From: Rhabdothermincola salaria
GTDB lineage: Bacteria > Actinomycetota > Acidimicrobiia > Acidimicrobiales > Acidimicrobilacustridaceae
Length of the DNA: 64,000 nt
Assembly: GCF_021246445.1 (NCBI RefSeq)
Contig: NZ_JAJQXW010000001.1
Coordinates: forward strand, 1,320,168 to 1,384,167
Direction: 5' to 3'
The notes below the pieces were generated by a model, which worked only from the letters and a program-made list of their open reading frames with translations, made no database searches and had not been told where the DNA came from. The stretch's first letter is position 1; every line of letters begins with the position of its first letter. Made by a program: the position numbers and the translations under genes. Positions 13,603 through 15,714 of this stretch are shown here, piece by piece.

Positions 13603-13709
13603 TAGCTTCGCGCACCATGCAGGGGGACACGATCCGCACCGGACGAGCCGGGGGCGCCGGCGGCCACCCCAGGGGCACCCGCGCCGGGCGCGAGAGGGAG
13701 CCAGGATGA
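13603..13709 (+). CDS. Possible 30-aa leader peptide of the UGSC operon
   Basis: An ATG at 13617 opens a 30-codon frame that ends at 13709, its TGA overlapping the ATG of the next gene (ATGA). A TAGCTT -10 box (13603-13608, included here) lies 8 nt before it, the leaderless spacing used by many genes in the window. The peptide is Gly- and Arg-rich, with six Arg and ten Gly, and resembles no protein. It could couple translation or act as a regulatory leader. It may also be chance. Confidence 0.35.
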
Positions 13710-15184
13710 GCGACGACGCACCAGCCGCCGTCTCGGCGGAGACGACCCCGCCGGACCTGCCCGACGACGGCCTGGTGGTGGTCGTCAAGCGGGACTGCCC
13801 CACCTGCCTGCTGGTCGTCCCCGTCCTCGAGCAGTTGGCCGACGACGGGGAGCTCACCGTGCTCGTCCAGGACGACACCGAGCCCTTCGCCCATCTCCCC
13901 CGCTGCTCGGCCGACGACGACCTCGACGTCTCGTGGGCGCTGCAGGTGACCACCGTGCCGACCCTCGTGCGGCGCCAGGGCGGTCAGGAGGTGGCCCGCA
14001 CCGAGGGGTGGCTCCGCGAGGAGTGGCAGGGCCTCACCGGGCGGTCGGACCTCGGCCCGCAGCTCCCCGACTTCCGTCCGGGGTGCGGCTCGCTCAGCGA
14101 GGAGCCCGCCCGATGGGCTCGTCTCCAGGTCCGCCACGAGGGCGGCCGGCTCCGCTCCCGCCGCATCCAGATCTCCGCCCTCGACGACGAGATGGAGTCG
14201 CTGTTCGAGCGGGGCTTCACCGATGGCCTCCCCGTGGTGCCACCCACGCCCGAGCGCGTGCTGCGCATGCTCGACGCCACCTCCCGGTCGCCCGACGACC
14301 TGGTGGCCGTGGTACCACCCGACCTGGTGGAGTGCACGGTCGAGAAGGTGGCGATCAACGCGGTGATGGCGGGCTGCAAGCCCGAGTACCTCCCCGTGGT
14401 GCTGACCGCCGTCGAAGCGGCCTGCACCGACGAGTTCAACATCCACGGGGTCCTGGCCACGACCTGGTTCGCCGGGCCGCTCGTGGTCGTCAACGGCCCG
14501 ATGGCGCGAGCCATCGGCATGAACAGCGGCATCAACGCGCTCGGCCAGGGCAACCGGGCCAACGCCACCATCGGGCGAGCCCTGCAGCTGGTGATCCGCA
14601 ACGTGGGCGGCGGCCGGCCGGGCGGCATCGATCGGGCCACGCTCGGCAACCCCGGCAAGTACACCTTCTGCTTCGCCGAGGACGAGGAGGGGTCCCCCTG
14701 GGAGTCCCTGGCCACCGAACGCGGCGTCGCCGAGGACCGCTCGGCGGTCACGCTCTTCGCCGCCGAGGGCGTGCGCGGGCTCGCCGACCAGGACTCCCGC
14801 ACCCCGGAATCGCTGGCCCGCACGTTCGCCGCCTGCCTGCGCACCGTGGCCCACCCCCGGGCCCTCGTCGCCTTCGACGCCATGGTGGTCGTGAGCCCGG
14901 AGCACGGTCGGGTCTTCGCCGAGGCCGGGTGGAGCAAGGCCCGCCTGCACCGGGAGCTCGCCGAGCTGTTGATGACCGACACCGACTCCGTCCTCAAGGG
15001 CCTCGACGGCATGGCCCCGGGCCTCGACCCCTCCCTCGCCGGCCTCCGGCTGCCCAAGTTCCGCGACGGCGGGCTGCTCATCACCTACGCCGGCGGCGGG
15101 GCGGGCATGTTCAGTGCCATCATCGGCTCCTGGGCCTCTGGCGCCATCGGCAGCCAACCCGTCACCTTGGAGGTGCGTCCGTGA
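13706..15184 (+). CDS. Thioredoxin-domain protein of the UGSC selenoprotein operon
   Basis: A 492-aa two-part protein. Residues about 22-115 form a thioredoxin fold with the active site CPTC (C31, C34) and the cis-proline in TTVPTL. The C-terminal 340 residues form a large domain of unknown function with LFERGFTDGLPVVPPTPERV, VAINAVMAGCKPEYLPVV, NSGINALGQGNRANATIGRA and a Gly-rich end LLITYAGGGAGMFSAIIG. Its stop overlaps the GTG of the UGSC selenoprotein (GTGA). A thioredoxin donor fused to this domain and coupled to a Sec protein suggests a redox enzyme system; the substrate is unknown. Confidence 0.75.
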   Translation: MSDDAPAAVSAETTPPDLPDDGLVVVVKRDCPTCLLVVPVLEQLADDGELTVLVQDDTEPFAHLPRCSADDDLDVSWALQVTTVPTLVRRQGGQEVARTEGWLREEWQGLTGRSDLGPQLPDFRPGCGSLSEEPARWARLQVRHEGGRLRSRRIQISALDDEMESLFERGFTDGLPVVPPTPERVLRMLDATSRSPDDLVAVVPPDLVECTVEKVAINAVMAGCKPEYLPVVLTAVEAACTDEFNIHGVLATTWFAGPLVVVNGPMARAIGMNSGINALGQGNRANATIGRALQLVIRNVGGGRPGGIDRATLGNPGKYTFCFAEDEEGSPWESLATERGVAEDRSAVTLFAAEGVRGLADQDSRTPESLARTFAACLRTVAHPRALVAFDAMVVVSPEHGRVFAEAGWSKARLHRELAELLMTDTDSVLKGLDGMAPGLDPSLAGLRLPKFRDGGLLITYAGGGAGMFSAIIGSWASGAIGSQPVTLEVRP

Positions 15185-15714
15185 CCGACCACGAGGGACT
15201 GACCGTGCTCGACCCCACCGGCGAGCTCCGGCCCACCCCGCGGGAGCGGGCCCCGCGGGTCGCCTCCCTCGAGGGTCGCCGAGTGGGCCTGCTCGACATC
15301 ACCAAGGCACGCGGCGACGTCTTCCTCGATCGGGTCGAGGAGCACCTGGCCCGCCGGGGGGCGGTGGTGAGCCGCTACCGCAAGCCCACCTTCACCAAGC
15401 CGGCGCCCGTCGACCTGCGCCAGGAGATCGCCATGCAGTGCGAGGTGGTCATCGAGGCGCTCGCCGACTGAGGGAGCTGCACGTCGTGCAGTGTGCACGA
15501 CATCGTGGATCTCGAGAGCCGGGGCGTGGTGGGCGTGTTCGTCGCCTCCACCGAGTTCGTCGACGCCGCCGCCACCCAGTCGTCGGCCCGGGGGGCCGAC
15601 CCGGCTGCGGTCTTCGTCGCCCATCCCATCCAGGACCGCACCGACGACGAGATCCGGGCCCTGGCCGACGACGCCGTCGACGCCATCGTGGCCGCCCTCA
15701 CCACCGAGTCCTGA
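15181..15714 (+). CDS. UGSC-family selenoprotein (in-frame UGA = Sec97)
   Basis: Ordinary translation stops at TGA 15469-15471 after 96 codons (ending VVIEALAD). The frame then continues without a break as GSCTSCSVHDIVDLESRG to a stop at 15712-15714. Reading UGA as selenocysteine gives ALAD-U-GSC-TSC-SVHD in one 177-aa protein, matching the UGSC (seleno)protein family whose motif gives it its name. U97, C100 and C103 would make a selenenyl-sulfide redox centre. The protein is hydrophilic apart from short core strands and is likely cytosolic. It overlaps the thioredoxin-domain gene by 4 nt. Standard gene callers would split or truncate it. Confidence 0.88.
15472..15501 (+). promoter_or_regulatory. 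Bacterial SECIS element
   Basis: Eleven nt after the UGA a perfect 8-bp stem begins: GTCGTGCA (15483-15490), loop GTG (15491-15493), TGCACGAC (15494-15501). The UGA-to-loop distance is 19 nt, within the range known for bacterial SECIS elements, and the loop starts with G followed by U, the bases SelB reads in the E. coli fdhF element. An overlapping alternative stem, CTGCAC/GTGCAG at 15477-15491, is shorter. Confidence 0.75.

Follow-up and report, generated by a model that had tools for sequence, protein, structure and literature searches.

A UGSC-family selenoprotein gene in Rhabdothermincola salaria, its thioredoxin-fused partner and a remote relation to glycine and proline reductases

Results

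Layout of the locus

The window, a stretch of 64,000 nucleotides from the R. salaria genome, contains two overlapping genes on the forward strand, with the following features.

13706..15184, + strand: partner gene, 492 aa, with a thioredoxin-like domain, linker Cys127 (PGCGS) and a ~340-aa orphan domain
13706..14044, + strand: thioredoxin-like domain at the partner's N-terminus (residues ~13-113; VIA-align Z 9-10 against thioredoxins)
14153..15181, + strand: orphan 'Unknown_1'-type domain of the partner, with conserved Cys224, Cys322, Arg291 and Glu325
15168..15172, + strand: Shine-Dalgarno-like GGAGG upstream of the GTG start, read directly from the sequence
15181..15714 (stop included), + strand: predicted UGSC family selenoprotein gene, 177 aa, selenocysteine (Sec) as residue 97
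15469..15471, + strand: in-frame UGA, predicted to be read as selenocysteine; relatives have U, Cys or UAG at the aligned site
15483..15501, + strand: predicted bacterial SECIS-type hairpin, 8-bp stem GUCGUGCA/UGCACGAC, apical loop GUG at 15491-15493

The frame of the UGSC gene starts with GTG 15181, 8-9 nt after GGAGG, and meets TGA at codon 97. It continues for 80 sense codons until the TGA stop at 15712-15714. The residues around U97 read ADUGSCTSCSVHD. With the upstream gene it shares a 4-nt overlap, GTGA. Start, internal TGA, length of the continuation, motif and overlap with a thioredoxin-domain gene had all been given in an initial annotation of this DNA, and each was found exactly as claimed. 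The clean continuation had also been used as an argument for readthrough, and here the claim holds in part: the open codons are present, but at 72% GC a run of 80 beyond a stop is expected by chance in about 25% of cases, so the openness is weak evidence. It would also fit UGA as a real stop, followed by a separate or decayed frame (pseudogene or sequencing error). What lifts readthrough far beyond chance is that one family profile spans both sides of the TGA and that Cys or TAG replaces it in relatives.

Family membership

The 177-aa readthrough product matched the family models PF24696 with 150.6 bits (cut-off 25, residues 8-174) and NF041046 with 155.8 bits (cut-off 125), in both cases on both sides of the UGA. 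The assignment to the UGSC family is thus supported by full-length matches above curated cut-offs. The U-G-S-C motif lies at residues 97-100; with U counted as C, positions 97, 98 and 100 do not vary among 61 aligned members. Alternation of Sec and Cys is also shared with the family, and nothing puts the protein outside of it. Its subclade is distinguished by a partner with a fused thioredoxin domain. The gene had been described as missed by normal gene calling. This applies to ab initio callers, but Pfam and NCBIfam both hold a model of the family.

UGSC selenoproteins have been known since 2008 from the GOS ocean metagenome paper (PMC2398784). In its passages on the family, 255 UGSC proteins are counted, one of the most numerous groups of selenoproteins in aquatic metagenomes, and the fold is called likely Trx-like. 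Reviews of 2022 and 2026 list the family again. Neither biochemistry nor an assigned function was found in the literature passages on the family. By its sequence, the 177-aa protein is a correctly identified member of a known, uncharacterised selenoprotein family, and the identification as such is not new. New are the remote homology to GrdB, GrdF and PrdB, the near-obligatory partner, the putative selenocysteine in the partner, the clustering with selA and selB, and the location of paralogues next to trxA/trxB and genes of carboxylate catabolism.

The Sec codon in relatives

Of the 296 class genomes, 104 carry UGSC genes. An in-frame TGA stands at the Sec site in about 120 distinct homologous sequences, which come from several phyla, and others have TAG or Cys. 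Among 80 named loci, 72 contain the UGSC gene: 69 with TGA, two with TAG, none with Cys and one ending before the site. The two TAG cases are Blastococcus massiliensis and Geodermatophilus obscurus (L087, L123); UAG-encoded Sec in UGSC proteins of Geodermatophilaceae was reported earlier (PMC5330540). Versions with Cys were seen only among paralogues at a greater distance, including one in the same genome (C2:720564-721013). Comparison with Cys versions, as proposed in the initial annotation, supported its reading, with both sides of the UGA matching the family and Cys at the site in these paralogues. The Cys-type paralogue of the same genome (CGSCTAY) is accompanied by its own orphan-domain partner, which lacks a thioredoxin domain (C2:720564-722180, L049).

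The hairpin downstream of the UGA

The putative SECIS-type hairpin begins 11 nt past the UGA, and in three of its pairs both bases are silent third positions of codons. On average, ~7.7 of the 8 stem pairs are retained among 93 distinct Sec genes from the clade of this gene, compared with 4.7 of 8 in 15 Cys paralogues. Where valine is encoded in the hairpin, the codon is GTG in 69 of 69 cases. Sec paralogues with TGG in place of TGC mostly have GTC, by which the pair is restored (7/8). Shuffling of the three silent pairs never reached the observed pairing (0/2000), a test that is inflated by the relatedness of the sequences. The folding energy of the single sequence was unremarkable (z -1.1) and weak taken alone, so the case for the hairpin rests on comparison. 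The retention of silent-site pairs in Sec but not in Cys relatives supports its reading as a SECIS-type element.

Selenocysteine machinery

The assembly carrying the window has 3.9 Mb and is 97.8% complete. A tRNA-Sec was detected with 70.6 bits, with the anticodon tca (UCA) assigned by ARAGORN. The same genome contains selD and an adjacent selA-selB pair, in which selA ends 50 bases before selB. The initial annotation had suggested a search for these four genes and had named a lack of selB and tRNA-Sec as the finding that would speak against it; all four are present. Of at least 82 class genomes with an in-frame-TGA UGSC gene among the matches listed, 80 have selA. For 22 genomes with UGSC no such gene is among the matches listed, and 12 of these are without selA. 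No selA was detected in two genomes with a TGA-type gene among the matches listed, one of which is only 79% complete.

With the profile across the UGA, the complete machinery, the kept hairpin and Cys or TAG at the site in relatives, UGA 15469 almost certainly encodes selenocysteine in a genuine selenoprotein, as had been proposed. A real stop is highly improbable in view of the TGA shared by homologues of several phyla, the maintained hairpin and the complete Sec machinery.

The partner protein

The upstream gene had been called a thioredoxin-domain protein. The thioredoxin fold was confirmed (Z 9-10), with CPTC at residues 31-34, but most of the protein is a separate orphan domain which that description overlooked. 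In this domain Arg291 and Glu325 are invariant and Cys224 and Cys322 near-invariant. No sequence match was found for it in Pfam, NCBIfam or PDB. In Foldseek the list for the partner was filled by the thioredoxin domain and by weak fumarate hydratase rows (rmsd 16).

Across the 296 class genomes, both genes occur in 102, only one of them in 2 and 4, and neither in 188; the partner is therefore present in 102 of the 104 genomes with UGSC. In Acidimicrobiia loci with 9-14 kb around UGSC, the ~340-aa orphan domain directly adjoins it. Among 77 assessable named loci with a partner, UGSC adjoins it in 70, lies 5-7 kb away in two and is not nearby in five. In five loci (L138, L155, L164, L165, L166) no UGSC gene was found in the flanks covered around the Trx-fused partner gene.

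A domain 'Unknown_1' fused to UGSC is reported in the passages on the family in the 2008 metagenome paper (PMC2398784). The orphan domain is probably the same domain as described there. In contrast to that fusion, the Unknown_1-type domain is here encoded apart from UGSC and is preceded by a thioredoxin domain in its own protein. Single proteins encoded near aconitase X genes on plasmids of Vibrio europaeus and Sporomusa termitida (L172:8365-10050, L173:8329-10053) look like fusions of the orphan domain with a diverged UGSC-like part.

An in-frame TGA takes the place of the partner's linker Cys127 (PGCGS) in Acidimicrobiia lineages (L150, L035) and in two Betaproteobacteria (L145, L160). An 8-bp hairpin follows this TGA in L035 and L150, and one TGA within the partner match was found in additional class genomes. 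Judged by these codons, both subunits may be selenoproteins in the four named loci. A second selenocysteine, in the partner, was not found in the literature passages on the family.

Relation to glycine and proline reductases

In a scan of 61 single UGSC proteins, with matches counted up to E 1, TIGR01917 (glycine reductase selenoprotein B) matched 43, with a best E of 1e-6, GrdF 39, TIGR01918 18, GrdH 11 and PrdB 5. In hhalign the family aligned to three GrdB proteins with E 5.8e-5, and in this alignment Sec was paired with Sec and HPIQD with HPVGD. Against 26 short PrdB-like proteins, the majority of which have an in-frame TGA, E was 7.7e-5 and the Sec columns were aligned. The controls gave E 0.06 against GrdE and 0.17 against the partner. 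The hhalign probability for the relation was 62-66%, and a single-protein match to GrdF reached 12 bits against a cut-off of 800. The matches to GrdF and GrdB were confined to their last 80-95 residues. Thus, UGSC is a remote homologue of the Sec domain at the C-terminal end of GrdB, GrdF and PrdB of glycine, sarcosine and proline reductase. This relation is not stated in the literature passages naming both families.

With GrdB, GrdF and GrdH (TIGR01917, TIGR01918, PF07355) UGSC shares a strand, a Sec motif (UGTxTRC vs UGSCTSC), a helix, an HP(V/I)xD motif and the link to thioredoxin. In contrast, the 177-aa protein lacks the ~330 N-terminal residues that precede the match in GrdB, its partner is not GrdE, and no grd subunit genes recur beside it. 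A relation of the partner to GrdE, the pyruvoyl subunit, was considered and rejected (hhalign E 0.73, no detectable relation). Since the partner shows no similarity to GrdE, the substrate is probably not activated in the same way. PrdB of D-proline reductase and the short PrdB-like selenoproteins are also small Sec proteins with UxxC and a similar C-terminal architecture, but their motif is UPxC instead of UGSC. Matches to DUF116 (E 0.015-0.03) were set aside as too weak.

Other genes of this kind were noticed. The same genome encodes a PrdB-like candidate selenoprotein with an in-frame TGA in LTPVUPLCTRTV (C1 ~775525-776655; L200:1501-2631, + strand), and similar genes with in-frame TGA recur across the class. 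In three class relatives (L208, L209, L210), GrdB-like genes with in-frame TGA lie next to GrdE-like genes. In L208 and L209 GrdC-like genes seem to come after these, a glycine-reductase-like cluster in an unexpected class.

The predicted model of UGSC, with a mean pLDDT of 94.3, shows an alpha-beta sandwich in which Sec97 is flanked by a strand and a helix. It matched Rossmann/flavodoxin-like folds, and no thioredoxin was among the matches listed. By sequence, the single protein found nothing in PDB at E 1, and the profile gave a chance-level flavodoxin.

Gene neighbourhoods

The order partner-UGSC-selA-selB was found on one strand in five proteobacterial loci and selA-selB-partner-UGSC, also on one strand, in four actinobacterial loci; in one further locus selA precedes the pair. 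The pair is thus clustered with selA and selB in several phyla. Apart from the pair itself, no neighbour occurs in more than 18 of the 97 loci of the Trx-fused clade, and among the annotated neighbour clusters only selA and selB are clearly spread across phyla. The common neighbours in Acidimicrobiia look like class synteny. No neighbour gene naming a substrate was found around these 97 loci.

UGSC paralogues on plasmids adjoin trxB and trxA in Arthrobacter and trxB in Roseovarius and Variovorax. They lie near genes for CoA-transferases, TRAP or TTT transport proteins, aconitase X and the like. In Acidimicrobiia, paralogues lie near genes for SDR, acyl-CoA dehydrogenase, CoA-transferase III and pyridine nucleotide-disulfide reductase. 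A carboxylate-type substrate is suggested solely by these paralogue neighbourhoods.

Discussion

The UGA stands at a conserved selenol/thiol position, the genome encodes the insertion of Sec and the pair is conserved as a unit. UGSC and its partner probably form one two-subunit, thioredoxin-linked redox enzyme. UGSC would be a stand-alone relative of the catalytic C-terminal domain of GrdB and PrdB, presenting Sec97 on a Rossmann-like sheet, at the N-terminus of a helix. Substrate binding would fall to the orphan domain, which has the invariant Arg and Glu and the near-invariant Cys224 and Cys322. Sec97 would attack the substrate and then be freed as a Sec97-Cys100 selenylsulfide, with Cys100 as resolving residue. 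The fused thioredoxin domain (Cys31/Cys34), perhaps via linker Cys127, would reduce the selenylsulfide again. As the outcome, a small metabolite, probably of carboxylate type, would be reduced or reductively cleaved with electrons from thioredoxin. Such chemistry would be analogous to that of glycine and D-proline reductase, yet it would occur in many lineages regarded as aerobic. For the pair we rate the chances of GrdB/PrdB-like reductive chemistry as about even. The explanation as a whole, a selenoprotein acting with a near-obligate partner as thioredoxin-driven GrdB/PrdB-like reductase, is on balance the one we favour.

UGSC could instead be a general thiol/selenol oxidoreductase or peroxidase which acts on disulfides or peroxides and is recycled by the thioredoxin partner. 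The UxxC motif, the thioredoxin domain of the partner and the likely Trx-like fold named in the family passages of the GOS paper (PMC2398784) agree with this. However, the predicted fold (pLDDT 94) is Rossmann/flavodoxin-like, the family resembles GrdB and PrdB, and its paralogues multiply beside CoA-transferase, acyl-CoA dehydrogenase, SDR and transporter genes, as substrate-specific enzymes do. We regard a general oxidoreductase as unlikely.

A similarly low probability is given to a reductive lyase for one class of organic acids, in which the orphan domain is truly catalytic and UGSC merely the electron donor. The conservation of Arg291, Glu325, Cys224 and Cys322 would fit a catalytic orphan domain, as would the tolerance of Cys at the Sec position in UGSC paralogues. 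In the Trx-fused clade, however, Sec is kept in all readable named loci (69 TGA and two TAG of 71). Because Sec and not Cys is retained there, the selenol is more likely to take part directly in a difficult step.

A wider proposal is made tentatively, at somewhat less than even odds. UGSC and the orphan domain may represent a widespread class of selenoenzymes, driven by thioredoxin, that has so far gone unrecognised. It would be a reduced counterpart of glycine and proline reductase with a new substrate-activating subunit and, in some lineages, two Sec residues, one per subunit.

Placed in the GrdB/PrdB superfamily and given a named partner and a probable electron donor, an orphan selenoprotein would become a testable enzyme. 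Furthermore, the clusters with selA and selB suggest the UGSC enzyme as a possible main reason for the retention or acquisition of selenocysteine in some lineages.
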